This document shows positions 1 through 39,176 of a stretch of 64,000 bases of DNA, piece after piece; within the stretch, counting starts at the first letter, position 1, and every line of letters starts with the position of its first letter. Location: the NCBI RefSeq assembly GCF_000832065.1, contig NZ_JXQM01000001.1:62001-126000 (forward strand). Direction: 5' to 3'. Made by a program: the position numbers and the translations under genes. The DNA comes from Nitrosospira sp. NpAV (GTDB taxonomy: Bacteria > Pseudomonadota > Gammaproteobacteria > Burkholderiales > Nitrosomonadaceae). Below the pieces are notes generated by a model. That model was given only the letters and a program-made list of their open reading frames with translations, was not told the DNA's origin and made no database searches.

Positions 1-2
1 CC

Positions 3-1853
3 ATTTATAGTAGCGGCTGGCGCCTGTTTCGCTTGTGCCAGCACTTAGGCCTGAGTGCCTTATCCCTACAGACACTCGAAAAACGGGATTTGCTGCAAAT
101 AATCACATTGCTGGATCAATTTTCCATAACGGAACGTGGCAAAGTCTGGCTTTACGCTTATGAGCGACACTATCGCGACAGCATCTTTCAGGCGATAAGC
201 GCTAATCACAATCGGGGAACCTGGGCGAAGCGCAATACCCGTCCCAGCTCACAAATTATTTTCTGTATAGATGATCGCGAAGAAAGCTTTCGCAGACATC
301 TGGAAGAACTCAACCCTGATATTGAAACGCTGGGTGCGGCAGGATTCTTTGGCGTACCGATGAACTATAAGGGTCTCGATGACACCAGGGTAACGCCCTT
401 ATGTCCGGTAGTGGTAACACCTGCCCATGAAGTAAGGGAAATACCGCGATCCGGGCGCGAACAAGCGATGATCCGGCATACCAACGGGCGCAAATGGTTA
501 CAGGCAGGCGTTAACCTGCTGCATCAAAGTATACGTCGCAACCTCGTATTGTCCCATCCGTTTATTGATGCAATTGCGCCGGTCACTCTCCTTGGATTAT
601 TGGCCAAATCAATAATACCTAGAAGCCAGCAAAAACTGGTGGCAGAGGTGCGCCAGTTGGTATCTCCTGCAGTCGACACAGAACTGATGTTTACGTCAAC
701 GGATAATGAAACGATTGCCACGCCGGCCCAACCCAAGCTGGGCTTTACGGACAAGGAGCAGGCCGACAAAGTTGCCGGTTTTTTACGGAATGCCGGGTTG
801 ACCTACGGATTCTCGCAACTAGTAGTGTTGATGGGGCATGGCTCTATCAGCCAGAACAACCCTCATTTGGCGGCCTATGACTGTGGGGCATGCAGCGGCC
901 GTCATGGGGGACCGAACGCAAGGCTGTTTGCGGCAATGGCCAATCGCCCGGTAATACGCAAGCTGTTAGTGGAACGGGGCATTGATATTCCATCCGATAC
1001 CTGGTTCATTGGCGCCGAACATAACACCTGCAATGAGGAAATTATCTGGTATGACCTGGGCGATGTACCTGAGGAACGGCGAGATGGACTCACCGAATTA
1101 CTTGGCCAATTGCGTCATGGGCAACAGATGTCCGCGCATGAACGTTGCCGGCGGCTGGCATCAGCACCGCGTAAACCTACACCGGTAAAAGCTCTGAAAC
1201 ATATTGAAGAGCGTGCTACCGATTTTTCCCAAGCCAGGCCTGAATTGGGACATGCCACCAACGCAGCTGCAGTGGTGGGACGCAGATCGGTGACACAAGG
1301 CGTATTCTTCGATCGCCGTGTCTTCCTCATTTCCTATGATCCAACCCAGGATCCAGAGGGGAAGGTGCTGGAAGGCATCCTGCTGGCTGTAGGACCCGTA
1401 GGTGCCGGCATTAATCTGGAATACTACTTCTCTACCGCGAATAATGAACGATTTGGTTGCGGGACAAAGGTACCGCACAACGTGGCTGGAATGTTTGGAG
1501 TCATGGAAGGGGCATCCAGCGATTTGCGTACCGGCCTCCCGCGCCAGATGATCGAGATTCATGAAGCGATGCGCTTGCAAATCATGGTCGAAGCCAAAAC
1601 ATCCGTTCTTGAGCAAATTTACGCCCGCCAGGAGAGCCTGCGCGAATTGATAGCAGGAGGATGGATACTTCTCAGCGCGAAAGATCCTGATAGCAGTGAG
1701 ATATTTATCTTTGAGCGCGGTATCGGATTTGTTCTCTGGCAAGCTGAAGCAGCAAAAATACCCATATTCAGAAATTCGCCAGAATATTACCGCGATCACA
1801 GTCAGCCATTATCTCCTGTATTGATCAGGCAACCCGCATTATTGGAGATATAG
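3..1853 (+). CDS. dabA: DabA-type inorganic carbon transporter subunit (DUF2309), 5' truncated
   Basis: The open frame runs in from the left edge without a start, so the N-terminal part of the protein is outside the window; about 617 codons are visible. It belongs to the DUF2309/UPF0753 family, whose member DabA is a carbonic-anhydrase-like cytoplasmic subunit that works with a membrane cation-translocating partner to accumulate bicarbonate. The zinc site reported for DabA (Cys, Asp two residues later, then His and a Cys 15 residues after it) is present: CIDDRE has Cys at 264 and Asp at 270, MGHGS has His at 837, and CGACSGRHGG has its first Cys at 882, exactly 15 codons on. It ends 4 nt before the next gene, so it is translated with the membrane subunits downstream. 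Family assignment is firm; activity is inferred. Confidence 0.92.
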   Translation: MYSSGWRLFRLCQHLGLSALSLQTLEKRDLLQIITLLDQFSITERGKVWLYAYERHYRDSIFQAISANHNRGTWAKRNTRPSSQIIFCIDDREESFRRHLEELNPDIETLGAAGFFGVPMNYKGLDDTRVTPLCPVVVTPAHEVREIPRSGREQAMIRHTNGRKWLQAGVNLLHQSIRRNLVLSHPFIDAIAPVTLLGLLAKSIIPRSQQKLVAEVRQLVSPAVDTELMFTSTDNETIATPAQPKLGFTDKEQADKVAGFLRNAGLTYGFSQLVVLMGHGSISQNNPHLAAYDCGACSGRHGGPNARLFAAMANRPVIRKLLVERGIDIPSDTWFIGAEHNTCNEEIIWYDLGDVPEERRDGLTELLGQLRHGQQMSAHERCRRLASAPRKPTPVKALKHIEERATDFSQARPELGHATNAAAVVGRRSVTQGVFFDRRVFLISYDPTQDPEGKVLEGILLAVGPVGAGINLEYYFSTANNERFGCGTKVPHNVAGMFGVMEGASSDLRTGLPRQMIEIHEAMRLQIMVEAKTSVLEQIYARQESLRELIAGGWILLSAKDPDSSEIFIFERGIGFVLWQAEAAKIPIFRNSPEYYRDHSQPLSPVLIRQPALLEI

Positions 1854-1857
1854 GATC

Positions 1858-3486
1858 ATGGACGTCCTCGCTGGGCTAATTCCCATTTTTCCACTGATTG
1901 CTGCGGCAGTTATCGGTATAGGACACCTGTTCGGGAAGCTCGAGGGCGAAAACAGCGAAACTACGACGGCGGCTATTGCCAGCTGGGCTATCGTACTGTC
2001 GTGCCTGCTGGCGTTGGCGCTGCTCGGGGGCGCCTTGATGGGTGCAAACGTGGGCTCATTCCGGATAGGCCAGTGGTTAGGCAGCAATACATTGATTGTT
2101 AATGTTAATTTTATCACCACTGGCTTCAGTGTGATATTGGCCGCCCTATTTGCAATCCTCTTATTCGTCATTATCCGATTTTCGGTCAATTACTTGCATC
2201 GAGAAGCAGGGTTTCACCGCTTCTTTTTCTTATTAAGCCTGTACGCTTCAGCAATGCTATTACTGGTATTGTCCGGCAACGCGGTAGGAACCTTTATAGG
2301 TTGGGAGGTTGCCGGACTCTGCTCTTATTTGCTGATTGCCTATGCTTATGACCGTCCGGTCGCCGCTCAAAACGCGACCCGTGTATTTGTCACGGTTCGT
2401 GCCGGCGACATCGGGTTTATTTTGGGCATTGGTCTCTGCTATGCCTGGACTAAAACGCTCGATTGGACCCAGCTTAATGTGCTATCGGCACAACTGTCGG
2501 GAGGGCAAGCTAGTGCAATTGCACTTTGTTTCGCTATCGCGGCATTTGCAAAGTCCGCGCAACTGCCTTTTGCACCATGGCTCGCGCGGGCGGCGGAAGG
2601 ACCTACGCCATCCAGTGCGGGATTTTATGGCGCCATCATGGTTCACTCGGGCGTTTACCTCTTGGTGTTGCTGCAACCCATTTTTGAAAGAGCACCGCTG
2701 GTCATGGCTCTGGTGGCAGCGGTGGGATTGGCGACGGCTATTTATGGCTTTGTCGTCGGACTAACCCAGACCGATGTAAAAAGCTCTCTCTTCTTCTCAA
2801 CGTCGGGGCAATTGGGCCTGATGTTTTTGGAATGCGGGCTGGGTTTCTGGCAACTGGCAAGCTGGCATCTCTGCGCCCATGCCGTGGTTCGCGGTTATCA
2901 GGTTCTCACCGCACCGTCGCTCATGCATTTTATCGTAGGCAATCCCATCAAACCGGTTGACCGGGAAATAGCGGGATTGCGCTGGGTGTATGTTGCCTCC
3001 TTACAACGTTTCTGGATTGATCAGATTACCGATTGGGCGCTAGTAAAACCGGTCCGGAAACTGGCCCACGATCTGGCTTATTTTGATGCTCTCGTCGATC
3101 GCGCCATGGGAACCCCGCTTCCGTCACTTCGCTCGATATCTACCCTGGCACAATTGGAAAAACAAAAGATCGCCACACGGCAGTCCCTTTATTCTTCCTT
3201 GGGTGTGGCCGGAAGCCTGACTCCGCTGGAAAAACAGAAAATTGCCATGCAACAGGAAAAGCAGGGTGATTTCGCTCGGGGCAGTGGGTTCACCGGTAAT
3301 TTTACCCGACGGATTACTGCAGTTTTGTACTGGTTCGAGGATCGTCTGGTGATACGTGGCATTGGCGAGGACATGATTAATTACGGACGTCAACTAGGAT
3401 TTGCCGCCAACAAAATCGAGCAGCTGTTGCTCAATCCCGGCTATCTCGCGCTGTTCGTATTAACAATATTATTGGTTGCGCTGTGA
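1858..3486 (+). CDS. dabB: NuoL/DabB-like proton-conducting membrane subunit
   Basis: This 542-residue, highly hydrophobic protein is of the complex I NuoL / Mrp antiporter family (Proton_antipo_M). The conserved GWE glutamate (about residue 150, in FIGWEVAGLCSYLL) and the KSAQLPF lysine (about residue 232), both in proton-channel helices of the family, are present, followed by EGPTPSS. The C-terminal third resembles NuoL's amphipathic arm but contains a duplicated LEKQKIA segment. It starts 4 nt after dabA and overlaps the next gene by 4 nt (GTGA), so the genes form one operon. Beside DabA it is the best candidate for the energy-coupling DabB partner. The symbol follows context; with three such subunits here the true partner is not certain. 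Confidence 0.82.
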   Translation: MDVLAGLIPIFPLIAAAVIGIGHLFGKLEGENSETTTAAIASWAIVLSCLLALALLGGALMGANVGSFRIGQWLGSNTLIVNVNFITTGFSVILAALFAILLFVIIRFSVNYLHREAGFHRFFFLLSLYASAMLLLVLSGNAVGTFIGWEVAGLCSYLLIAYAYDRPVAAQNATRVFVTVRAGDIGFILGIGLCYAWTKTLDWTQLNVLSAQLSGGQASAIALCFAIAAFAKSAQLPFAPWLARAAEGPTPSSAGFYGAIMVHSGVYLLVLLQPIFERAPLVMALVAAVGLATAIYGFVVGLTQTDVKSSLFFSTSGQLGLMFLECGLGFWQLASWHLCAHAVVRGYQVLTAPSLMHFIVGNPIKPVDREIAGLRWVYVASLQRFWIDQITDWALVKPVRKLAHDLAYFDALVDRAMGTPLPSLRSISTLAQLEKQKIATRQSLYSSLGVAGSLTPLEKQKIAMQQEKQGDFARGSGFTGNFTRRITAVLYWFEDRLVIRGIGEDMINYGRQLGFAANKIEQLLLNPGYLALFVLTILLVAL

Positions 3487-5081
3487 GCACCACCATGATT
3501 ACCAATGTTTCCTTCTGGTCAGAATCTTTGGCGTTTCCATTGGTGTCCACGCTGACACTCGTTCCTCTGACCGCCATGTTTGCCGTTCTGTTTTCGCGTT
3601 CCTTCCGGCTTGCCATAGGCTTTGGCTTTGCCGGCACGCTACTTAACGTGGCCTTGAGTTTCTACCTGTTATCTGTCTTCGATCCCGAGAAAGCCGGAAC
3701 GCAGCTAGCCGAACAGGAACGTTTCTTTGACTATACATATTATAGCGTCGGGGTTGACGGACTTAATATTCTGTTTATTCCGCTCACGGCTATTTTAGCG
3801 TTACTGGTTCTTGTTTATAAAATCACTACTCAACGTACATTAGACTGGCAATTCATTGCGTGCCTGCTTGGCTATGAAGCTATCTTGATCGGTGCATTTT
3901 CCGCACTGAATGTTATGCAGTTTTGGTTCTGGACCTTGCTTGAGTTGGCGCCGGTAATTTTATTGACAGTTCACGGTGGGACAGGACATAAAAAACGATG
4001 GGTAATCACCCGACTGGTGCAATACTGGGGCTGGGGCTTGCTGATGACCCTGGCAGGCTTTCTGCTGCTCGGTTTTGGATTGATGGATTCGGGCCACGCC
4101 TTGAGTTTCGACTGGATGACGCTGAAGCAAAATAAGACCCTATTAAAAAATGAAACATTGATCTTTATTCTACTATTTTGTGGCTTTGCCATTCGTATGC
4201 CGCTATTTCCGTTTCATGGCTGGCTGCCAATCCTGGCGCAGCAGAGCTCTGTGGCCAGCGTCACCATTTTCCTGGTGGGCTTGAAGTTAGGAGTGTATGC
4301 AACCGCACGCTTCATTTTGCCCGTAGTGACAGAAGCCGCTGAACAATGGGCCGGATTTGTGGTTACGCTGGGTCTGATTAGCATTTTCTATGGTGCGCTG
4401 CTAGCACTGATGCAAATCAACATTCGCCGGTTACTGGCCTTTTCCGTCATCAGCCATGTCGGCATGCTGGTTATCGGTATTTTCTGTTTCAACGAGCATG
4501 GACTGAATGGCGGGGTCTTCCTGTCGCTGGCATGGGGCCTGGCATCAGCAGGAATGCTGTTCAGTATCGGCTTGGTGTATGAGCGCACGCACACCGCTTT
4601 TACCCCACGACTGGGTGGTCTTTTTGATACCAATATCAGCGTGGCGTTACTTTTTTTCATTGGCGCACTGAGTACCATGGTCATGCCCGGGACTCCGGGA
4701 TTCGATGCGGCTCATTTGCTTATCGAAGGCACCATCGAAGAATATGGCTGGGTGGTTGCCATCGCAATTCTCGTGGGCAACGTGCTAGCGGCTGCATTCC
4801 TACTTTTGGCCTTTCAGCAGATATTTATGGCCCCTCCCAAGCGGGCGGTACAACCACACGGGACTGATCATTATGCGGTAAGAATGGAACCTGTCATCGC
4901 TGTGACGATTTGTTCATTGCTTATCGGTACCGGTTTTAACACGGCCCCCTGGCTGAATTATATCGAAAGGGATCCAACGGGGATGAGCGCCTATTATCAC
5001 AAGCCCGGCGAAAAACATCCCAAAGACATGCAGACTAAACCTGTCGATGGCGGCCCCTCGAAGGATAGTCAACATGATTGA
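3483..5081 (+). CDS. NuoM/NuoN-like antiporter subunit with altered channel residues
   Basis: A 532-residue polytopic membrane protein of the complex I antiporter-like family, starting with GTG inside the stop region of the preceding gene (an ATG four codons later is possible). The loop GFAIRMPLFPFHGWLP corresponds to the NuoM signature GFAVKxPxxPxHxWLP, but the channel lysine is Arg (about residue 238). The FWE motif reads FWT (Thr about 151), with a Glu only three residues later. Its C-terminus is a hydrophilic tail of about 40 residues rich in Lys, Pro and Asp. It overlaps the next gene. It probably assembles with the flanking subunits into the DabA complex; whether it still conducts protons is open. 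Confidence 0.8.
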   Translation: MSTTMITNVSFWSESLAFPLVSTLTLVPLTAMFAVLFSRSFRLAIGFGFAGTLLNVALSFYLLSVFDPEKAGTQLAEQERFFDYTYYSVGVDGLNILFIPLTAILALLVLVYKITTQRTLDWQFIACLLGYEAILIGAFSALNVMQFWFWTLLELAPVILLTVHGGTGHKKRWVITRLVQYWGWGLLMTLAGFLLLGFGLMDSGHALSFDWMTLKQNKTLLKNETLIFILLFCGFAIRMPLFPFHGWLPILAQQSSVASVTIFLVGLKLGVYATARFILPVVTEAAEQWAGFVVTLGLISIFYGALLALMQINIRRLLAFSVISHVGMLVIGIFCFNEHGLNGGVFLSLAWGLASAGMLFSIGLVYERTHTAFTPRLGGLFDTNISVALLFFIGALSTMVMPGTPGFDAAHLLIEGTIEEYGWVVAIAILVGNVLAAAFLLLAFQQIFMAPPKRAVQPHGTDHYAVRMEPVIAVTICSLLIGTGFNTAPWLNYIERDPTGMSAYYHKPGEKHPKDMQTKPVDGGPSKDSQHD

Positions 5082-6573
5082 AGCAAATTTCCCCATATTA
5101 AGCTTTGTAATTCTGCTGCCTTTATTGGGTGGCATTGCGGTTGGCCTCACCTCCGATATTAACCTGGCGAAAAGAATGGCGCTGTTGATTGCCAGCGCTG
5201 AGTTAGTTGCAACGCTAGTTGTTGTTCAATTGTTTGACGCCACTAAAGGCGATAGCTTTCAGCTGGTTGAACAGCATACATGGATACCAAGTCTGAATAT
5301 TTTGTTCTTAATTGGGATCGACGGAATTTCAGTATTATTCCTGCCGATGTCAGCACTGTTGACGCTGGTCGCCATTATCGCTTCGTGGAATTCTGTACAG
5401 CATTTAACCCGTTTTCATTTTGCCCTGTTGCTGGCTATGGAAGGCGGCACCATGGGCATATTTGTCGCGCTGGATTTAATGCTGTTTTTCTTGTTCTGGG
5501 AATTGATATTGCCTCCCATTTTCTTCCTGATCAGTCTTTGGGGAGGCGGGCCCGAGAGACGCGCCGCCGCGATGAAGTACATACTGTATATGCTCTTTAG
5601 CGGTGTGCCGGTGCTCTTTGCATTCATCATGCTGGGAGTCAACCATGCCATGCAAACGGGTGGGAATGTCCCGTTGAATTTATCCTTTAGTTTTCCTGAG
5701 CTGCTACAAACTCCTATATCAGATGATTTGCAGGTTATCATTTTTCTGCTGTTACTCGCGGGGTTCGCGGTGAAGGCCCCGCTGGCGCCGTTTCATACCT
5801 GGTTGCCGACAACCGCCGTAGAAGCACCCACACAGTTGACAGCATTGCTGGTGGGTCTGAAATTGGGTGCATTTGGCATACTACGATTCGCGATGCCGCT
5901 AACACCCCATGCTTCCGCAGAATATGCCTGGGTGCTTGGCATCCTGGGGGCCATCACTTTTATCTACGCTGCCATGATTGCCTTGCAACAGACCAATTTG
6001 CGGCGCTTGCTGGCCTACGCCAGTATTAGTCATGTTGGCTTGGTGGTAGTAGGCATCGCGTCTCTCAATATGCAGGGAATACAAGGTGCAATTTTTCAGT
6101 TGCTCAATTTCACCGTGGTGGCAAGCTGCCTAATGTTAATCGCCGGTTTTATCCAGCATCGCCTGGGAAGTACGGAAATTCTTCATCTGGGTGGTTTGGC
6201 GAAGGTAATGCCCCGACTGACAACATTTTTCTTCATATTTGCCTTGGCCAGCATGGGTTTACCGGGAACCAGCGGATTCCCGGCAGAATTGCTATTGATC
6301 ATCGGTGCGCTTAATTCTCATCCAGGGTTGGGCATTGCTGCGCTACTCGGGGCCATTCTTGGTGCGGCCTATATGCTGTCGTATGTGCGACGCACCTTTT
6401 TTGGACCAATCATGCATTTGAGATTAAACCAGGTACAGGATCTGCGTTCCCGTGAATTCGCTCTCTTATGTGTACCTGCATTCCTGATATTGTTCTTTGG
6501 ATTCTTTCCCGATTTAGTTCTCGACATCAATCGGGCGGCGGCTGAGTCATGGCTAAACCGCCTGGTGAATTGA
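5074..6573 (+). CDS. NuoM-like proton-conducting membrane subunit
   Basis: A NuoM-like antiporter subunit of 499 residues from the ATG at 5074, chosen over an in-frame ATG at 5047 because AAGGA lies about 9 nt upstream and the protein then starts at its first helix. The canonical channel residues are intact: FWELILPP (Glu about 143) and GFAVKAPLAPFHTWLP (Lys about 234). The gene overlaps the preceding one by 8 nt and is last in the dabA operon. No nuoA-K or other complex I genes are nearby, so a role in carbon uptake rather than NADH oxidation fits best. That is an inference from context. Confidence 0.83.
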   Translation: MIEANFPILSFVILLPLLGGIAVGLTSDINLAKRMALLIASAELVATLVVVQLFDATKGDSFQLVEQHTWIPSLNILFLIGIDGISVLFLPMSALLTLVAIIASWNSVQHLTRFHFALLLAMEGGTMGIFVALDLMLFFLFWELILPPIFFLISLWGGGPERRAAAMKYILYMLFSGVPVLFAFIMLGVNHAMQTGGNVPLNLSFSFPELLQTPISDDLQVIIFLLLLAGFAVKAPLAPFHTWLPTTAVEAPTQLTALLVGLKLGAFGILRFAMPLTPHASAEYAWVLGILGAITFIYAAMIALQQTNLRRLLAYASISHVGLVVVGIASLNMQGIQGAIFQLLNFTVVASCLMLIAGFIQHRLGSTEILHLGGLAKVMPRLTTFFFIFALASMGLPGTSGFPAELLLIIGALNSHPGLGIAALLGAILGAAYMLSYVRRTFFGPIMHLRLNQVQDLRSREFALLCVPAFLILFFGFFPDLVLDINRAAAESWLNRLVN

Positions 6574-6609
6574 CCGGAGCCTTAAAAAAGCGTTGCTTGA
6601 TTCTCGATG

Positions 6610-6649
6610 GGGTCTTCTGAAACTCTCAATCTGCAATCCCGGAAGACCC
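6610..6649. terminator. hairpin between convergent operons
   Basis: GGGTCTTC (6610-6617) pairs with GAAGACCC (6642-6649), an 8-bp perfect stem with a 24-nt loop, lying between the dabA operon and the convergent carbonic-anhydrase-like gene. There is no clean T tract, so it could be a weak bidirectional terminator or an mRNA-stabilising hairpin. Confidence 0.35.
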
Positions 6650-6669
6650 ATCTTCATCTTATCTACATA

Positions 6670-7788
6670 TCAGAATGATGCGGCAATCTCGCTACGGGCA
6701 CTATCTGCTGAACTTTCGACAACCCTCTCCAGGGTACGTGAGTGCCAATCAAGTACAGCAGTGCGGACAAACATCTTTTCGGCGAGTTGAGGGTATTGCT
6801 GTCGAATCACCTCGGCCCCGAAACGCGCCAGGAAAATCGATTTTAGTTCGGCGCGTGCCCGATCCATGCCGATCTCCATGTAGGGTACCGACGCCAGTAA
6901 AAGAAAACCATCATCCGGAATACGGCCACTTCGCATGTTGCCTTGAATGATGCCGCCGGCCTTGCCGATCGGTACATCCAGATTCGGGCTATAGGGACCG
7001 ATAATCAGGGCCAGATTGGGCGTGTGCAGAAAGTCGAAGCCACGACCGAGGCAAATCATCCACTCACAGTGCTCTATGTCCAGCTGCCGCTCGTGACGCT
7101 CTGTCTGTTCGCGAACCCGCGCGATAGTATCAAGATTACCCAGCAACAGCGGCAACAGATCGGCACGCATCTGAGGCGGCATATCAGGCAGCAGAGCGGC
7201 AAGACGAGGTTCCAGCGTGGCTCGACCATCTGCCCCAAGCGTTGATAGATCAAGCTTCTCACCTTTGGAGCCATGAACGATTATTGTGTCTTCGTCGGTT
7301 TCAATACCACAGATAAGGGGATAAATGGTGGAGTGCCCCGTACCGAAGATCTGTTCCATCTGGCGCCGGATGACTTGTGTATGAGCATATGCCGCTGCAG
7401 TATCATAGTTGAATCCGGCGCATCCACGATGCGGATCGCCTTTGGAAAAATGGTAGGTAACCAGAAAGAGCACTCGTCGGCCGGTGCTTACCCAATTTTG
7501 CACGTGGTGAGCAAGCACCTCGCCCAGATGAGGCCATCCCAGATCAAATGCGCCGCCAAGATTGCGAAATGGCATGAGAATACCTGGGGGGGTGTTGGTC
7601 ATCACCGGAATATTGATACGACCATCCATACACTTCAGCACGGCAATAGCTGTGGGATGTTCTGCGAGATAACGCTCGCGGGCCACCCATGCTTCCGGGC
7701 TGCGAAATGCTGCGCCATGGCGGTCGGCGAGATCGAATAACCAGTCTATGCGCTTTTCTATAGGCAGGCGAATAACTTCATTAGGCAT
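6670..7788 (-). CDS. long beta-carbonic-anhydrase-like protein
   Basis: A 372-residue soluble protein without signal peptide. It carries the beta-carbonic anhydrase pattern: C53-x-D55-x-R57 in LKCMDGRIN, then FRNLGGAF (compare the RNAG segment of the family) and H120-x-x-C123 in HRGCAGF. These would supply the zinc ligands Cys, His, Cys and the Asp/Arg dyad. Ordinary beta enzymes have roughly 200-230 residues; here about 200 further residues follow, with a GxGFDFL...PNLALIIGPYSPNLD region and no second ligand set. A catalytic half followed by a degenerate half recalls CsoSCA. It is convergent with the DabA operon and downstream of a two-component system on the same strand. Family placement rests on motifs only and the activity is inferred. 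Confidence 0.62.
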   Translation of the reverse strand: MPNEVIRLPIEKRIDWLFDLADRHGAAFRSPEAWVARERYLAEHPTAIAVLKCMDGRINIPVMTNTPPGILMPFRNLGGAFDLGWPHLGEVLAHHVQNWVSTGRRVLFLVTYHFSKGDPHRGCAGFNYDTAAAYAHTQVIRRQMEQIFGTGHSTIYPLICGIETDEDTIIVHGSKGEKLDLSTLGADGRATLEPRLAALLPDMPPQMRADLLPLLLGNLDTIARVREQTERHERQLDIEHCEWMICLGRGFDFLHTPNLALIIGPYSPNLDVPIGKAGGIIQGNMRSGRIPDDGFLLLASVPYMEIGMDRARAELKSIFLARFGAEVIRQQYPQLAEKMFVRTAVLDWHSRTLERVVESSADSARSEIAASF

Positions 7789-7884
7789 TCTTCAGGCTCC
7801 ATCGTTTGGTTATTTAAGGACATAAAACATTGAGCATACTAACATATGAAATATCAGGAATTTGTGAAAACCTGCCTGTGAGGG

Positions 7885-9192
7885 TCAGGGAAATGTTATG
7901 TGGAAGGTCGCTCCTTTTCCTGGCGTACTTTCAACCTCGATGATCCAACCGTAATGGTCGCAAATACGCTTTACGATGGCCAGGCCGATCCCCAAGCCCT
8001 CCCCCTGGCTTGATCCACGGAAGAAGCGCTCATACAGAAGAGGCATATAAAAAGGCTCGATGCCGATGCCGGAATCGGCAATCGAGAGCCGGTTCCGACT
8101 GAAATTTACCCGGATAAAACCACGTTCGGTATATTGCACCGCATTGCGAAGCAGGTTGACAAGCGCGGTATGAAGCGCCTGGCGGTTCAAAGTGAGGACA
8201 GCCTTTGGCGCTATCGCTACTTCGAAAATAAGGCGCTTGCGGTAGATTTCCGTGCATACGGGCTCCACCGCGTCATAAACACATTCGGCGAGCGCGACAG
8301 GTTCCATAATGCCCAGAGCCTGCTCACGGGCAAGAAATAGCAGAGCCTGCAATTGCTCGCCCATGCGCGTCGCCGCGGCTTCGATCATCCCGATGCGGGA
8401 GCGCGTGCGTTCGGAAAGATTAGGCTCCGTAACCAGCAGCTCGCAACTCGTCAGGATCGTGGTGATCGGGGTGCGCAATTCATGACTGACATTGGCGGTA
8501 AACTCCTGCTCACGCCGCAGCATGCGTGTGATACGGTTCTGATAGTCGTCCAGCGCATGGGCAAGCTGAGCCACCTCTTCATCCTGTCCCGGCTGTATCA
8601 TGGTCGCGCCCTGTACGTCACCGGGCGCAAGATGCCTCACACGCTCGGCGAGGTCGGTGACTTGTTTGACCAGCAATCCTGCAAGCAAATACCCTACCAC
8701 GAGGGCGACGCCCACCACCGACAGAAGAGATAGCACGATAAGAAGCCTGAGTTCCTGCTGCCGCTGGTCGTGGAGGCCGATTTCGTAGGCAACGAGAAAT
8801 TTCACGCCATCGACGTGCCTTACCGCGACGCGAACCTCTTCCGGACCCCGGAACACCTTGTGACGCCGATAATTGAGACCCTGCAAATAGGGAGGGAGAT
8901 GAGATTCCTCGATGGAATCATGGACAATGTATTTTTCGAGATTGGATCCGACCTGCGGTACAAAATCAGCGCGCTCACGATAGCGCTGGAGCAGATAATC
9001 CATCTCGGTTTCAATGATCTGCTCGATATGTGCCTCTTCGATATCGTCCGAAGCGATATAAAGACTGATACCGAGCGTTCCAACGACAACTATGCAGAAT
9101 ACCGCAAATGCCAGCGCAACACGCAGGCGGAGGCCGCGCTTAAACCCCGGCACGGGAAATGAGGCGGTAGCCAAGGCCATGAACTGTCTCAA
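7885..9192 (-). CDS. two-component sensor histidine kinase
   Basis: A 435-residue membrane sensor kinase of the OmpR-partner type. In order: a first transmembrane segment (about 21-46), a periplasmic sensor region of about 100 residues, a second transmembrane segment (about 148-175), HAMP, the HisKA box NVSHELRTP with phospho-acceptor His237, then the ATP-binding N box (LLRNAVQYT), DSGIG, the FFRGS F box and GLGIGLAIV. Its start overlaps the 3' end of the response regulator gene by 53 bp, and starts 12 or 39 nt further in are possible. The sensor domain is not recognised, so the signal is unknown. It is followed after 96 bp by the carbonic-anhydrase-like gene on the same strand. Confidence 0.9.
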   Translation of the reverse strand: MRQFMALATASFPVPGFKRGLRLRVALAFAVFCIVVVGTLGISLYIASDDIEEAHIEQIIETEMDYLLQRYRERADFVPQVGSNLEKYIVHDSIEESHLPPYLQGLNYRRHKVFRGPEEVRVAVRHVDGVKFLVAYEIGLHDQRQQELRLLIVLSLLSVVGVALVVGYLLAGLLVKQVTDLAERVRHLAPGDVQGATMIQPGQDEEVAQLAHALDDYQNRITRMLRREQEFTANVSHELRTPITTILTSCELLVTEPNLSERTRSRIGMIEAAATRMGEQLQALLFLAREQALGIMEPVALAECVYDAVEPVCTEIYRKRLIFEVAIAPKAVLTLNRQALHTALVNLLRNAVQYTERGFIRVNFSRNRLSIADSGIGIEPFYMPLLYERFFRGSSQGEGLGIGLAIVKRICDHYGWIIEVESTPGKGATFHITFP

Positions 9193-9823
9193 TTGGATCG
9201 TAGCCGCCCGCCCGGGTCAATGCACGACGCAATTCATGCATGTGGCTGCGCAAGGTATCGCTGGTTCCCTGCGCATCGCCCCAGACCTCCGACTCCAACT
9301 CTCTCCGGCTGAATACGCGGCCGGGTTCGCCCATCATGAGCGCGAGCAAGCGGATACATTTTGGCGGCAGTTTGACGGCTGCACCGGCAAAACGGACCGA
9401 CAACGTTTTTGGATCGAACGATAGATCATCGCTTTCCAGTATACGGCTGGTAACTTTACCTCCGTGCCGTTTATGCATCGCGGCTAGACGCGCCTCGACC
9501 TCCTTCAGCGCGAATGGCTTCACCAGATAGTCGTCCGCTCCACAATCAAAACCTTTCAGCTTGTCCGCCAGTGTATCGCGCGCTGTCAGCATCAGCACAG
9601 GCGTGTCGAGATCCGCCTCTTGGCGAAGCTTTCGACACAGAGTAATGCCATCCATGCCGGGCAAGCCGAGGTCGAGCAAAATGCCGTCAAATCGCTGTGT
9701 AACCGCGAGATGCAGACCCGTGATGCCGTCCGCGGCGGCATCGACACTATGGCCGCGAGCTTCCAGAAAATCATAGAGATTGGTGGCAATCGCGGGATCG
9801 TCTTCAATAATAAGTATATGCAC
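9140..9823 (-). CDS. OmpR/PhoB-family response regulator
   Basis: An OmpR-type regulator of 227 residues: receiver domain (IIEDD near the start, phospho-acceptor Asp51 in LLDLGLPGMDG, conserved Lys in YLVKPF) and a C-terminal winged helix ending in ETVHGLGYRL. The GTG at 9823 is chosen because AGGA lies about 6 nt upstream and the receiver begins directly at VHILIIEDD; a longer frame from 9874 adds 17 unrelated residues. It overlaps the kinase gene, so the two are one transcription unit. Target genes are not evident, though the carbonic-anhydrase-like gene downstream is a candidate. Confidence 0.92.
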   Translation of the reverse strand: MHILIIEDDPAIATNLYDFLEARGHSVDAAADGITGLHLAVTQRFDGILLDLGLPGMDGITLCRKLRQEADLDTPVLMLTARDTLADKLKGFDCGADDYLVKPFALKEVEARLAAMHKRHGGKVTSRILESDDLSFDPKTLSVRFAGAAVKLPPKCIRLLALMMGEPGRVFSRRELESEVWGDAQGTSDTLRSHMHELRRALTRAGGYDPIETVHGLGYRLISRAGV

Positions 9824-10200
9824 GAAAGATCCTATCGAAAATATAAGATAACGAAGGTTCAACCGAACTGACAAACACTAGACCAGAAAACTGATACATC
9901 CTGCTTTCCCCAACCTCACAGGAAATTCTCCAATTTGCTGCGTGAACCACCGAGGGCTTATGGAACCAATCATCATGCCCACTTATTACAATTACGAAAT
10001 TCTAAGCAATATATTTTTGTAGTTTATACCCTTTTACTGGAAACCTGTCGGACTTAAAGAATACCGGCTGCAAAACTGACCGGCTCATATTCCACCCCTT
10101 TTTCGACCGACAGAGGGAGCAACAATTGGTTTTCGAAAATATCAAAATTTGTCCTGCTCGATTATTTTCCGCCCCGATCCGTTTCAGTCCTCATACTGTG
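9824..10200. other. intergenic stretch, no gene seen
   Basis: This is the 377 bp between the response regulator start and the hemE stop. I found no convincing coding frame, RNA or hairpin. The regulator promoter should lie near its right-hand neighbour but I could not assign clear -35/-10 boxes. Confidence 0.5.
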
Positions 10201-33400: not shown

Positions 33401-33603
33401 TAGCGTCCGGAGCCGGCGCGGCCAGCCGGAATTCCATTGGGACGGGCGTATTCGGGGGCATGTTGGCTGCCACGTTTCTGGCTATCTTTTTCGTGCCGCT
33501 TTTTTTTGTAATGATTGGGAAAATCACGCACCGAGGTAAGCATGCGACGGCTGAAACTCAGCGAACTGCAACTGATGATTCCTCCTCAGCCAAAGAAGAA
33601 TAA
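30430..33603 (+). CDS. RND efflux pump 2, inner membrane transporter (HAE1/AcrB family)
   Basis: A 1057-residue AcrB-type transporter. The proton relay is intact: GIVVDDAIVVVENVER (about residue 408) and GLAAKNAILIVEFANQR (Lys about residue 940). The C-terminus is extended by a hydrophilic tail rich in Thr, Ala and Glu. It is only moderately similar to pump 1 and so represents a second specificity. It starts within the adaptor 2 stop and is followed after 25 bp by outer membrane factor 2. Confidence 0.95.
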   Translation: MTPHFFIDRPIFASVLSIIIVVVGLVALKTLPIAQFPQITPPMVQIDADYPGASAEVVAEAVARPIEVQLPGIDNLLYYDSTSTNDGHMTMRLTFEIGTDVDIAQVQTQNRQRLAEPQLPDEVVRQGVTVKKTSPDLLAVIALSSTDPRHDTVFLSNYALLRILDNVKRLPGVGDATIFGGQNYSMRLILDPVRMAQLDLTPTEVAAVVREQNRDFPAGRIGREPTSQGTELTIPVITRGRMSEVNEFEDMIVRAYPDGSMVRLRDIARVELGAQSYDLEGRWNGKPNTFLLTFLAPGANALDTVQRVREEMDKLSKSFPVGVSYDIPYDTTTFIDVSIKEVVKTLVEATLLVILVVFIFLQSWRATLIPAIAVPISLIGTLAGMAALGFSINTLTLFGMVLAIGIVVDDAIVVVENVERHMTQGGLSPKDAAKKAMDEVTGPVIAIVLVLAAVFVPVAFLGGITGELYKQFAITIALSVAISGFVALTLSPALCALVLKPSHSQPRGVWKTFNRSFDWMQTHYTGVVGVILKRSVIALVVFGTLIAVIFGLFRTIPGSFLPEEDQGYFITIVQLPDGASKTRTIEVLSKIESYFQSVPAVHSTDTLAGQNFVFGTRGTNQATMFVPLHHWDTRRNAEEQVPGLIAAAFQEFAKIPEALILAFNAPSIRGLGSTGGFSLQLQDPSGGDFAEFAAVAQEFVAKAMEHPAIAAASTNFRVSAPRLYAQVDRERAKALGVPISEVFDTMQAYFGNLYINDFVKFGRIYRVQTEALPEYRSNPNDISKVYVRAQNNEGRTMIPLDSVVTTEFTSGPDPVTHFNGFNTALVLGGAAPGYSSGQALAALEQVADEVLTPRGYAIDWSGISFQEHKAGGQSVLVFAFALLMVFLVLAALYESWSIPLAVILAIPFGILGALLAIWTRGLTNDIYFQIGLVTLIGLAAKNAILIVEFANQRYVAGLSLTDAALEAARLRFRPIIMTSLAFILGVFPLVIASGAGAASRNSIGTGVFGGMLAATFLAIFFVPLFFVMIGKITHRGKHATAETQRTATDDSSSAKEE

Positions 33604-33628
33604 TAAATGTGGACCCAACAGGAACGGC

Positions 33629-35023
33629 ATGACGCAATACATTAACAGAGTCGGTATTCTATTATTCTCCAGCTTGTTCCTGGCCTCCTGCGCTATGGGA
33701 CCGGACTATTTCCGGCCCCCTATCGACACCGCCGAGAAGTTTCGCATGACAGAAACGGAAGGGCAATCCATCGCCAATCTGCCCTGGTGGGAGCTTCTTC
33801 GGGATGAGGAACTGCAACGGCTCATCAACCAGGCTCTACTGGAAAATAAGGATCTCAAGCGGGCGGTCGCGAGCGTCGAGGAACTCCAGGCCCGCCTGGG
33901 AATAGCACGCATGGATTTCCTCCCTAAAATGGATATCAACGCCAATGCACCGGCGATGGGCACCCTCGGCGGCTTCCTTCTTCCCGGATTTCCCACGCCC
34001 TTCAATTATTTCGGACAGACGACCCTGAACTGGGAACTGGATATCTGGGGCAGGCTGCGCCGTTCCAGTGAAGCAGCCCGTGCCGATCTGCTGGCGCGTG
34101 AGGAGAATCGCCGGGCAATCGTGCTTACACTGGTAAGTTCGGTGGCGCAGTCTTATTTCGACCTTTTGCAATTTGATATGCAGCTCGATATTGCCCAGCG
34201 CGCGCTATCCTCCTGGGCGGACTCGGTTGCCATTGCCCGCGCGCAACTGCGAGGCGGGCTGATTTCCCGTCTCGATCTGAATCAGTTCGAGGCGGAGCAT
34301 GCCAATGCGGAGACCAGAGTGGCGGAACTTGGCCGGCAAATGGTCCAGAAAGAGAATGAACTGAGCGTATTGCTTGGAAAAAACCCCATGGCGATTCAGC
34401 GGAGACGCAAGCTGACAGATCAGTTGACGCCGCCGGAAGTGCCCGCCGGCCTGCCTTCCGAGCTGTTGCAACGACGCCCCGATATTCTCCAGGCTGAACA
34501 AACCCTGGCGGCGGCCACCGCCAGAATCGGCATGGCCAAAGCGGCGCGGTTTCCCAAGCTCACGATTACGGGCATTCTGGGGGTAGCCAGTCCGGCTTTA
34601 TCCAATCTGCTGCTCTCGGGAAGCGAGTTTGGAGTGGGCGGGCTCGGCTTGGCCGGCCCACTGCTGAATGCGCAAAGCCTGGGTTTCGAACAGCGGGCCG
34701 TGGAAGCTCAGGCAAGACAGGTGTTGGCGCAATATGAGCAAACCATCCTGGTGGCATTCAAGGAAGTGGAAGACGCGCTGGTGGCAGTTCGTAAAGTCAA
34801 TGATCAGCGCAAGGCGCAGCAAGTTCAGATCGAAGCGCTGCGCTCAGCTTTACGCGTATCCGATGCACGCTACCGGGGGGGCATTACGAGCTATGTGGAT
34901 GTACTCCTTGTCAAACGCACTCTCTTCGATGCCGAATTTGCCCTTACGGCTACGCGCCGCTTGCATCTGGTGTCCGTCGTTCAGCTCTATAAGGCTTTGG
35001 GTGGAGGATGGTCGCCAGGATAG
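33629..35023 (+). CDS. NodT-family outer membrane factor lipoprotein 2
   Basis: An outer-membrane channel lipoprotein of 464 residues from the ATG at 33629, which has AGGA about 6 nt upstream and gives a normal lipoprotein signal ending FLASC. A longer frame reaching back to 33515 inside the pump gene is rejected. The mature part from AMGPDYFRPP on is very close to the other two copies. It belongs to the second pump operon. Confidence 0.93.
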   Translation: MTQYINRVGILLFSSLFLASCAMGPDYFRPPIDTAEKFRMTETEGQSIANLPWWELLRDEELQRLINQALLENKDLKRAVASVEELQARLGIARMDFLPKMDINANAPAMGTLGGFLLPGFPTPFNYFGQTTLNWELDIWGRLRRSSEAARADLLAREENRRAIVLTLVSSVAQSYFDLLQFDMQLDIAQRALSSWADSVAIARAQLRGGLISRLDLNQFEAEHANAETRVAELGRQMVQKENELSVLLGKNPMAIQRRRKLTDQLTPPEVPAGLPSELLQRRPDILQAEQTLAAATARIGMAKAARFPKLTITGILGVASPALSNLLLSGSEFGVGGLGLAGPLLNAQSLGFEQRAVEAQARQVLAQYEQTILVAFKEVEDALVAVRKVNDQRKAQQVQIEALRSALRVSDARYRGGITSYVDVLLVKRTLFDAEFALTATRRLHLVSVVQLYKALGGGWSPG

Positions 35024-35185: not shown

Positions 35186-36604
35186 ATGATAATCTCGCCT
35201 TTACGGAAGAAAAATAGTCACTCGTGGGGACGGATATTATTGCTTATCCCGGGCCTGCTTCTGACAGCGTGCGCCATGGGACCGGACTATTTCCGGCCCG
35301 CTATCGACACCGCCGAGAAGTTTCGCATGACAGAAACGGAAGGGCAATCCATCGCCAATCTGCCTTGGTGGGAGCTTCTTCGGGATGAGGAACTGCAACG
35401 GCTCATCAACCAGGCTCTGCTGGAAAATAAGGATCTCAAACAAGCGATCGCGAGCGTCGAGGAACTCCAGGCCCGCCTGGGGATAGCACGCATGGATTTT
35501 CTCCCCAAAATGGATATCAACGCCAATGCACCGGCGATGGGCACGCTTGGCGGCTTCCTTATCCCCGGCTTTCCGACACCCTTCAATTATTTCGGACAGA
35601 CGACCCTGAACTGGGAACTGGATATCTGGGGCAGGCTGCGCCGTTCCAATGAGGCTGCCCGTGCCGACCTGATGGCGCGCGAGGAGAATCGCCGGGCAAT
35701 CGTGCTTACACTGGTAAGTTCGGTGGCGCAGTCCTATTTCGACCTTTTGCAATTCGATATGCAGCAGAATATTGCCCGGCGTGCCCTGTCATCATGGGAA
35801 GAATCGGTTGCCATTGCCCGGGCGCAACTGCAAGGCGGAGTAATTTCCCGTCTCGATCTGGATCAGTTTGAAGCGGAACGTGCCAACGCCGCTACCAGAG
35901 TGGCGGAACTTGAACGGCAAAAGGTTCAGAAGGAAAATGAGCTGAGTGTATTGCTTGGAAAAAATCCCATGCCGATTGCGCGAGGCCCCTCGCTGACAGA
36001 ACAACTGATGCCGCCGGAAGTGCCAGCCGGCCTGCCTTCCGAATTATTGCAACGGCGCCCCGATATTCTCCAGGCTGAGCAAACCTTGGCGGCGGCCACC
36101 GCCAGAATCGGCATGGCCAAAGCGGCGCGGTTTCCCAAGCTCACGATTACGGGCTTTCTGGGGGTAGCCAGTCCGGCTTTATCCAATCTGCTGCTCTCGG
36201 GAAGCGAGTTTGGAGTGGGCGGGCTCGGGCTGGCCGGCCCATTGCTGAATGCGCAAGGCCTGGGTTTCGAACAGCGGGCCGCGGAAGCCCAGGCGAGACA
36301 GGTATTGGCGCAATACAAACAAACCATCCTGGTGGCATTCAAGGAAGTGGAAGATGCGCTGGTGGCGGTTCGTAAAGTCAATGATCAGCGCAAGGCGCAG
36401 CACGAGCAGGTCGAGGCGCTGGGCTCGGCATTGCATGTGGCCGATCTCCGCTATCGCGGAGGCGTCACGAGCTATGTGGATGTGCTCCTTGCCAAGCGTA
36501 ATCTGTTCAATGCCGAATACGCCCTCGCGGCAACACACCGTCTGCATCTGGTATCCATTATTCAGCTCTACAGGGCTTTGGGTGGAGGTTGGTCGCCAAC
36601 TTAA
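35186..36604 (+). CDS. NodT-family outer membrane factor lipoprotein 3
   Basis: A third outer membrane channel of 472 residues, starting MIISPLRKKNSHSWGR with lipobox LLTAC. It has no pump or adaptor gene of its own; 162 bp separate it from factor 2. At DNA level its 5' third and 3' half follow copy 2 almost exactly, while a middle stretch near 35770-35930 follows copy 1. It may be read through from the second pump operon or be an extra channel shared by both pumps. Confidence 0.92.
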   Translation: MIISPLRKKNSHSWGRILLLIPGLLLTACAMGPDYFRPAIDTAEKFRMTETEGQSIANLPWWELLRDEELQRLINQALLENKDLKQAIASVEELQARLGIARMDFLPKMDINANAPAMGTLGGFLIPGFPTPFNYFGQTTLNWELDIWGRLRRSNEAARADLMAREENRRAIVLTLVSSVAQSYFDLLQFDMQQNIARRALSSWEESVAIARAQLQGGVISRLDLDQFEAERANAATRVAELERQKVQKENELSVLLGKNPMPIARGPSLTEQLMPPEVPAGLPSELLQRRPDILQAEQTLAAATARIGMAKAARFPKLTITGFLGVASPALSNLLLSGSEFGVGGLGLAGPLLNAQGLGFEQRAAEAQARQVLAQYKQTILVAFKEVEDALVAVRKVNDQRKAQHEQVEALGSALHVADLRYRGGVTSYVDVLLAKRNLFNAEYALAATHRLHLVSIIQLYRALGGGWSPT

Positions 36605-37659: not shown

Positions 37660-37754
37660 GAGCGCCAGAATTTCAAGCACTTATGCAAGTGGTAATGTCT
37701 GTAACGCTCCCTCGTTCCAATGGAAATGAGTGGAATTCAACTGGAGAAAATACT

Positions 37755-39176
37755 ATGGCAGGGAAAACATACAACGCCGGCGTGAAAGAGTACCGGCAAA
37801 CCTACTGGATGCCGGATTACACGCCGCTGGATACCGACATTCTGGCATGTTTCAAGATTACCCCCCAGCCCGGGGTCGACCGTGAAGAAGCCGCTGCAGC
37901 AGTCGCCGCAGAATCCTCCACAGGCACCTGGACCACGGTCTGGACCGATCTTCTGACCGATTTGGATTACTACAAGGGCCGTGCTTACCGCATTGAAGAC
38001 GTACCCGGTGATGATACCTGTTTCTATGCTTTCGTTGCATATCCAATCGACCTGTTCGAAGAAGGCTCCGTGGTCAACGTGTTCACTTCCCTGGTTGGCA
38101 ACGTGTTCGGCTTCAAGGCCATCCGTGGCCTCCGACTGGAAGATGTCCGCTTTCCCATCGCTTACGTGAAAACCTGCGGTGGCCCCCCCCACGGCATCCA
38201 GGTTGAGCGGGACATGCTCAACAAATATGGCCGCGCTTTGCTGGGCTGCACCATCAAACCCAAGCTGGGCTTGTCCGCCAAGAACTACGGCCGGGCTGTG
38301 TATGAGTGTCTGCGCGGCGGCCTGGATCTGACGAAGGATGACGAAAATGTTAACAGCCAGCCTTTCATGCGCTGGCGTCAGCGTTTCGACTTTGTCATGG
38401 AAGCCATCCACAAGGCTGAACGTGAAACCGGTGAACGCAAAGGTCACTATCTGAACGTAACCGCGCCCACCCCGGAAGAAATGTACAAGCGTGCCGAGTA
38501 TGCAAAGGAAATTGGCGCGCCCATCATCATGCACGACTATATCACTGGCGGCTTCTGCGCAAACACGGGCCTGGCCAACTGGTGCCGCAACAACGGCATC
38601 CTGCTGCACATCCACCGCGCCATGCATGCCGTGATCGATCGTAACCCGCACCACGGTATTCATTTCCGCGTACTTGCCAAGATTCTGCGTCTATCCGGTG
38701 GCGATCATCTCCATTCCGGTACGGTGGTTGGCAAGCTGGAAGGAGACCGTGCCGCCACGCTGGGCTGGATCGACCTGATGCGCGACAGTTTCATCAAGGA
38801 AGATCGCGCTCGTGGCATCATGTTTGATCAGGACTGGGGTTCCATGCCTGGCGTGTTCCCGGTTGCTTCCGGCGGTATCCACGTTTGGCACATGCCTGCA
38901 CTGGTCGCTATCTTTGGCGATGATGCCTGCCTGCAGTTTGGCGGCGGCACCCTGGGCCACCCATGGGGCAACGCCGCCGGCGCGGCTGCCAACCGCGTGG
39001 CGCTGGAAGCCTGCGTCGAAGCCCGTAACCAGGGTGTGCCGATCGAGAAGGAAGCCAAAGCTATTCTGACCAAAGCTGCGGCTTCCAGCCCCGAACTGAA
39101 GATCGCCATGGAAACGTGGAAAGAAATCAAATTCGAATTCGATACCGTGGACAAACTGGACGTCGCTCACAAGTAA
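37755..39176 (+). CDS. cbbL: RuBisCO large subunit, form I (green-like, IA type)
   Basis: The 473-residue large subunit of ribulose-1,5-bisphosphate carboxylase/oxygenase, which fixes CO2 in the Calvin cycle. The start is the ATG at 37755 with GGAG about 8 nt upstream; a frame back to 37683 is not used. Catalytic parts are visible: TIKPKLGLS (active Lys 168), [11 protein letters not shown] (carbamylated Lys 194 with the metal ligands Asp and Glu), HIHRAMHAV, and [10 protein letters not shown]. The N-terminus [22 protein letters not shown] is of the form IA kind. No carboxysome genes follow; instead cbbQ and cbbO do, as in form IAq operons. Confidence 0.98.

Follow-up and report, generated by a model that had tools for sequence, protein, structure and literature searches.

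A CsoSCA2-type carbonic anhydrase gene beside the DAB operon of Nitrosospira sp. NpAV and its pairing with DAB in related bacteria

The csoSCA2 gene and its island in Nitrosospira sp. NpAV

The window considered here, a stretch of 64,000 nucleotides from the genome of Nitrosospira sp. NpAV, opens within a DAB operon that is faced from its downstream side by a gene we refer to as csoSCA2 (Table 1). The original prediction had presented this gene as coding for a 372-residue relative of the beta-carbonic anhydrases (beta-CAs) facing the DabA operon. The frame is indeed open over 372 codons, and the two units are arranged tail-to-tail, with 96 bases between csoSCA2 and the last antiporter-like gene. 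Upstream of the window lie genes of the PII and SbtA families on the minus strand, followed by the antiporter-like gene that opens the DAB operon on the plus strand, and the island as a whole reads PII and SbtA (minus), antiporter-like, DabA, NuoL-like and two NuoM-like (plus), and csoSCA2, histidine kinase and response regulator (minus). A cytochrome P460 gene (PF16694; positions 2168-2809 of locus L087) is found beside the PII and SbtA genes. A related histidine kinase adjoins csoSCA2 in two other loci (L003 and L004) and stands upstream of the DAB operon in four (L095, L096, L102 and L106); in several other genomes of the family, genes for a histidine kinase, SbtA or SulP, and PII or Usp precede the DAB operon and csoSCA2 comes after it. 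The possible hairpin between the convergent units was missed by the terminator scan; the scan for promoters and terminators returned 3 and 1 sites, respectively, against shuffle means of 1.8 and 1.5, and Rfam gave no match over positions 6000-10200.

The genome, which is 99.86% complete, contains a single csoSCA-type gene. It has two genes for the RubisCO large subunit, one of them inside the window, where the ORFs that follow it are presumably cbbS, cbbQ and cbbO. Elsewhere in the window two adjacent and very similar ORFs (33515-35023 and 35186-36604), which by eye resemble outer-membrane efflux lipoproteins, perhaps reflect a recent tandem duplication. Two ordinary beta-CAs of the PF00484 family are also encoded in the genome, both away from the csoSCA2 locus. 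The shell protein family PF00936 had no match in this genome, in a search whose control was matched in E. coli and Synechococcus elongatus; Nitrosospira with cso loci that lack csoSCA are on record (PMC9239080, PMC9164163), and the present host differs from these in having no shell match.

Table 1. Features of the csoSCA2-DAB island and its context in the window
Feature	Position	Strand	Details
DabA, C-terminal part	1..1853	plus	PF10070, 1e-193; gene starts upstream of the window, 1094 aa whole (locus L088); CIDDR and GHG motifs
DabB-like NuoL-type antiporter subunit	1858..3486	plus	PF00361 and PF00662
NuoM-like antiporter subunit 1 of DAB operon	3483..5081	plus	PF00361, TIGR01972
NuoM-like antiporter subunit 2 (NuoM2), last DAB operon gene	5047..6573	plus	PF00361, TIGR01972
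Possible hairpin between convergent units, weak evidence	6606..6652		-19.2 kcal/mol, z -2.04, 9/200 shuffles as good
csoSCA2, non-carboxysomal CsoSCA-type beta-carbonic anhydrase	6670..7788	minus	372 aa; C53, D55, R57, H113, C123, H240, E242 at active site
Sensor histidine kinase	7885..9192	minus	PF00512 and PF02518; 96 bases upstream of csoSCA2, co-directional
Response regulator, Trans_reg_C output domain	9140..9874	minus	PF00072 and PF00486; L003 96%, L004 91%
RubisCO large subunit (context, outside the pair)	37683..39176	plus	PF00016 at G000:C1:100193-101119

Family membership, active site and predicted fold

The csoSCA2 product matches the Pfam family CsoSCA_cat (PF20686) with 35.1 bits against a cut-off of 21.5, as do 49 of the 54 rows of our alignment A1, the host protein among them. 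Against TIGR02701, the NCBIfam equivalog of the carboxysome shell carbonic anhydrase, it scores 46.7 bits, under the cut-off of 241.05, and the canonical beta-CA family Pro_CA (PF00484) gave no match at E values up to 10, in a search whose HMMER filters drop many weak matches. A sequence search of the PDB returned five significant matches, all of them CsoSCA (the best being 2fgy, 4.6e-7), with a beta-CA coming next at an E value of 1.2. These profile searches, which had been proposed as a check, together with the missing PF00936 match in the host genome, uphold the view of the protein as an apparently non-carboxysomal beta-CA relative. The search for relatives matched 263 stretches, 251 of them coding for relatives; among the best 80 of these 251, which we used, the nearest named ones are Nitrosospira sp. 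56-18 (85%) and Nitrosovibrio tenuis (84%), with the other 78 loci at 66-77%.

In a joint alignment of 82 sequences C53, D55, R57, H113, C123, H240 and E242 are invariant in all 74 csoSCA2-type and all 8 carboxysomal-type rows. By alignment, the protein thereby retains all residues of the CsoSCA active site, listed as C173, D175, R177, H242, C253, H397 and E399 in Table 2 of PMC9164163; alignment with the PDB chains equates His113, Cys123, His240 and Glu242 with His242, Cys253, His397 and Glu399 of the Halothiobacillus enzyme. The ligand pattern of the original prediction is correct with respect to C53-M-D55-G-R57 and C123, which are active-site residues, and needs amendment in its histidine: the His120 column holds a histidine in just 23 of the 74 csoSCA2-type rows, and the ligand is instead the invariant His113 within the motif YHFS. 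Likewise, zinc ligands are absent from the second half, as had been claimed, but His240 and Glu242, the counterparts of the catalytic His397 and Glu399, lie there. Asp252 sits at the position of Asp409 of Halothiobacillus CsoSCA, which has been tied to RuBP-independence (PMC11086599), and its column is D in 73 and E in 1 of the 74 csoSCA2-type rows. This residue weakly suggests that CsoSCA2 might act independently of RuBP, and disfavors RuBP control of the kind seen in Cyanobium; against such a reading, the 8 carboxysomal-type rows vary in this column, with E, K, N or R. In those rows Arg75 faces S, A or F, with no arginine, which makes the RuBP comparison tentative.

A model predicted from a 54-row alignment (pLDDT 88.9, pTM 0.85) was used alone, a single-sequence model having been discarded at pLDDT 41.7. 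In VIA-align comparisons it superimposes on 8thm (Z 29.2, 342 residues, 3.2 A), 9g4t (Z 27.8, 336 residues) and 2fgy (Z 27.2, 339 residues, beginning at residue 67 on the 2fgy side), with model residues 1-359 or 1-361 covered in these alignments. The tandem-domain CA 1ddz comes after the CsoSCA chains (Z 17.7, model residues 14-358), single-domain beta-CAs stay below Z 10, and the Foldseek ranking agrees in placing the CsoSCA chains first and 1ddz next. The predicted fold, with a second domain that is beta-CA-like and devoid of zinc ligands, supports the double-domain CsoSCA layout suggested at the outset. The N-terminal part is different: 52 residues precede the first zinc cysteine, C53, as against 172 ahead of its equivalent C173 in Halothiobacillus CsoSCA, and hence the N-terminal RubisCO-binding peptide of the latter, P22-A30 (PMC12918739), is without counterpart. 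Thus the long N-terminal part with a RubisCO-binding tail that marks the carboxysomal enzymes is missing, and in its place the model has two helices (10-28 and 31-43), in line with the report on CsoSCA2 (PMC9164163), where the N-terminal domain measures about 40 rather than 144 residues and has two short helices. Moreover, the gene lies outside a carboxysome locus, in a genome with no PF00936 match and with DAB and two-component genes as its neighbors, and in our tree the 8 carboxysomal-type rows are split off by a branch with SH-aLRT 100 (a quick tree in which long branches were flagged).

By family, active-site residues and predicted fold, the csoSCA2 product belongs to the CsoSCA-type beta-carbonic anhydrases. 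With the carboxysomal CsoSCAs of Halothiobacillus (2fgy/9g4t) and Cyanobium (8thm) it shares the predicted fold over 336-342 residues and the catalytic residues, while having about 120 fewer residues ahead of the first zinc cysteine, scoring below the TIGR02701 cut-off and lying outside a cso operon. The suggestion that it might represent an undescribed subgroup does not stand. The group was named CsoSCA2 in 2022, in a paper that presents it as widespread, non-carboxysomal and as yet unstudied; a variant described there, short at its N-terminus, agrees with the host protein, and members are named from Nitrosomonas and Accumulibacter (USF Genomics Class et al. 2022, PMC9164163). A 'non-cso' CsoSCA cluster was described in 2024 (PMC11086599). 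CsoSCA2 variant 2 and this 'non-cso' cluster share with the host protein the short N-terminal part, the active-site residues, the pairing of an active with a defunct domain and the place outside the cso operon; the host CsoSCA2 is a further member of this family, and no difference in kind was found. In the sections available to us, PMC9164163 and PMC11086599 contained no enzyme assay of the type, and PMC12646314 uses CsoSCA2 as an outgroup only.

Pairing of csoSCA2 with DAB operons

The position beside the DAB operon, which the original prediction had mentioned in passing, is more informative than the claimed subgroup. Among 125 genomes of the host's family, the Nitrosomonadaceae, DabA is found in 65 and a csoSCA2 match in 48, with 46 of these 48 having both (Fisher p 2e-16, uncorrected for kinship, which inflates such p-values); Pfam alone picks up the short-type csoSCA2 in 32 of the 125. 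In 38 of the 48 the gene lies downstream of DabA on one contig, co-directionally in 34 (including a split gene whose second piece is on another contig) and tail-to-tail in 4, the host among them. It is on a contig other than that of DabA in 8, one of which (G019) shows the NuoM2 gene beside csoSCA2 on the csoSCA2 contig, and the 2 genomes without DabA both have csoSCA2 fragments. The 34 co-directional copies are 4895-6118 bases from the DabA match, and in the 11 genomes that were measured the nearer csoSCA2 copy begins 44-170 bases past the NuoM2 match. In one genome (G070; L092 2757-5016) a tandem csoSCA2 pair closes a single DAB operon, and in four (G057, G085, G120 and G124) the csoSCA2 matches have stops or split frames, pointing to decay or assembly faults; at least two of the 48 matches are affected in this way. 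None of the six family genomes with a carboxysomal-type CsoSCA has a csoSCA2 match, a difference from the 32 that is not significant (p 0.34).

Four DAB loci with ample 3' flank (L098, L103, L104 and L108) have no csoSCA2 after the operon, and no substitute CA was identified at that position in the DAB loci lacking csoSCA2, from inspection by eye and Pfam searches of some of the ORFs. Instead, the operon of L098 (G012) meets the gene of an ABC transporter tail-to-tail, and the RubisCO small- and large-subunit genes come next on the strand of that transporter, such that a RubisCO locus occupies the place that csoSCA2 has elsewhere; L104 (G077) has the same appearance by eye over the stretch covered.

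The recurrence of the pairing in many relatives suggests that CsoSCA2 cooperates with the DAB pump. We found it named in no paper, in a search that was thin on subscription journals and with the proviso that the neighborhood figure of PMC11086599 may show it without naming DabA; it is this conserved operon pairing, rather than the known CsoSCA2 family, that we did not find in print. According to PMC11086599, the 'non-cso' clusters frequently occur together with NAD or [Fe-Ni] hydrogenases or with permeases; these may be different names for the NuoL/NuoM-like genes of DAB. PMC9164163 states in general terms that, where loci are atypical, most of the organisms possess likely DIC transporters, either at these loci or elsewhere. 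DAB is not named as a neighbor in the text of either paper as available, whereas in the host csoSCA2 directly adjoins it. The host operon resembles DAB2 of Halothiobacillus (PMC13144422) in combining DabA with a NuoL-like partner; however, DAB2 is a DabA-DabB pair, and the host operon combines a DabA of 1094 aa with four antiporter-like genes.

Outside the family the linkage is patchier. Among the best 80 of the 251 database loci, the end of NuoM2 is tail-to-tail with csoSCA2 within 2.5 kb in 12 and absent in 47, with 21 loci too short to judge. DabA was matched in the same 12, which include Rhodocyclaceae, two marine Gammaproteobacteria MAGs and Thiodiazotropha, and genome G473 also has the two units tail-to-tail. 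The linked/unlinked label requires 5 changes among the judged rows of the csoSCA2 tree, a quick tree built after 24 of 97 rows had been set aside. Among 369 genomes sampled across the class the csoSCA2 profile matched 15, of which 6 carry the short form and 9 have frames of 508-576 aa. DabA occurs in 2 of these 6, 6 of these 9 and 83 of all 369, and both short-form genomes with DabA show the tail-to-tail pair. Fifty csoSCA2 genomes, of unstated completeness, were further tested for both systems: DabA is matched in 28 and without a match in 22, and RubisCO is matched in 37 (36 above the cut-off) and without a match in 13, with all 11 DAB-linked genomes having RubisCO. DabA in 28 of 50 genomes and linkage in 12 of 80 loci make DAB a common companion of csoSCA2, but not an obligatory one. 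Spurious reverse frames from GC-rich loci added noise to the clustering of neighboring ORFs, of which just the Pfam-checked clusters were used. In Accumulibacter loci, including L010, L012 and L018, csoSCA2 lies near sulfate-assimilation genes (EF-Tu-like GTPase, PAPS reductase and sulfite reductase families) and polysaccharide export genes, and no DAB match was found within the locus.

The Nitrosospira-type csoSCA2 has 74-76% identity to the Rhodocyclaceae loci, versus 40-44% to the operonic copies of its own family, while the DabA of Nitrosospira groups with the family, an AU test rejecting a grouping with the Rhodocyclaceae/L037 DabA (p 9e-54). We considered horizontal replacement of the operonic csoSCA2 by a Nitrosospira-type copy; since the tests do not reject a tree that unites the Nitrosospira-type and operonic csoSCA2 in one clade (p 0.558 for 82 rows and p 0.43 for 58), we do not claim it. 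A parallel case is seen in genome G079 (L089), where a stand-alone, carboxysomal-type CsoSCA is likewise tail-to-tail with DabA and has SbtA- and PII-like genes upstream; no cso gene was recognized in the 14-kb stretch, in which part of the ORFs was searched. It differs from the host CsoSCA2 in its length of 494 aa, in passing TIGR02701 (609.9 bits) and in facing a different DAB operon in which DabA is last, and may correspond to variant 1 of PMC9164163. Together with the occurrence of csoSCA2 in two orientations, this case suggests that CsoSCA-type CAs came to lie beside DAB operons more than once; how often is not settled by the tree tests.

Probable role of CsoSCA2 and alternative explanations

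We consider it likely that CsoSCA2 is a compact CsoSCA-type beta-CA, with one live and one defunct domain, that works free of any carboxysome as the partner of the DAB Ci-uptake operon; from the evidence presented above we infer that it is catalytically active, resides in the cytosol, acts independently of RuBP and cooperates with DAB. DAB2 has been described as a PMF-coupled one-way CO2 hydrase (PMC13144422). The DAB system of the island would similarly hydrate CO2 in one direction to cytosolic bicarbonate, at the expense of the proton-motive force, and CsoSCA2, as a soluble CA, would re-equilibrate this bicarbonate with CO2. At moderate expression, such re-equilibration could feed both RubisCO, which uses CO2, and bicarbonate-using carboxylases. 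In RubisCO-dependent engineered E. coli lacking carboxysomes, DAB2 or a CA, singly or combined, gave better growth at 0.5-1.5% CO2, and with the combination the cells grew slightly in air; in C. necator adding DAB to the native CA was not harmful (PMC9894237). The model in that study, in which modest CA activity returns CO2 from imported bicarbonate and lowers the pumping needed, offers a reason for having both a CA and an uptake system. A csoSCA2 gene beside DAB in a genome with no shell-protein match is what might be expected of such a combination, and it names a likely partner for the CsoSCA2 subfamily; as a conserved CA-DAB gene pair in cells without a shell-protein match, it also constitutes a natural, testable locus.

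Several observations count against this reading. A free cytosolic CA next to a bicarbonate-accumulating pump should leak CO2, as in the cyanobacterial experiments quoted in PMC9894237, and the four DAB loci with ample 3' flank have no csoSCA2 behind the operon. Most judgeable database loci lie away from DAB, 22 of the 50 csoSCA2 genomes have no DabA match and 13 no RubisCO match (with one more below the cut-off), and in the class-wide sample DabA accompanies the short form in 2 of 6 genomes, against 83 of 369 overall. These same counts favor the view that CsoSCA2 is an ordinary housekeeping CA giving bicarbonate for biosynthesis, whose proximity to DAB arose by chance at the level of clades and persists through common descent. 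We regard this as unlikely, though as a serious alternative: the neighbor stays the same in the family despite the differing orientation (34 co-directional, 4 tail-to-tail), tail-to-tail pairs recur in other families, and the linked/unlinked label needs its 5 changes on the tree. The two ordinary beta-CAs of the host tell against both readings, as the cell is already provided with such enzymes.

A stage of 'CA plus Ci uptake, no compartment' has been proposed in the evolution of CO2-concentrating mechanisms, and we raise, as a speculation that we rather doubt, that the SbtA/SulP-DAB-CsoSCA2 island of these carboxysome-free relatives of ammonia oxidizers is a working, natural instance of it. 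In this scenario CsoSCA2 would be dedicated to a DAB complex of five genes, perhaps docking on it as a subunit, and CsoSCA would have been drawn into carboxysomes out of a partnership of this kind.

It appears improbable that CsoSCA2 is, rather than a free CA, a peripheral subunit docked on an expanded DAB membrane complex, controlling or recycling its substrate. The co-directional placement downstream of DabA in the 34 family genomes would fit, PMC9164163 allows that CsoSCA2 may join other enzyme complexes, and the three antiporter-like genes beyond DabA and DabB may set the complex apart from the DAB2 of two subunits; however, many csoSCA2 genes have no DAB nearby, and a docked dehydrating CA would oppose a one-way hydration pump. 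That CsoSCA2 is a functionless leftover of a carboxysomal CA after loss of the cso operon is hardly credible: it would account for the presence of a CsoSCA relative where no shell protein was matched and for the broken copies in the four related genomes (assembly faults being possible there), but CsoSCA2 is set apart from the carboxysomal-type rows by the strongly supported branch of the quick, long-branched tree, its catalytic residues are conserved throughout the 74 csoSCA2-type rows, and its frame is intact and 84-85% conserved in the sister genomes.
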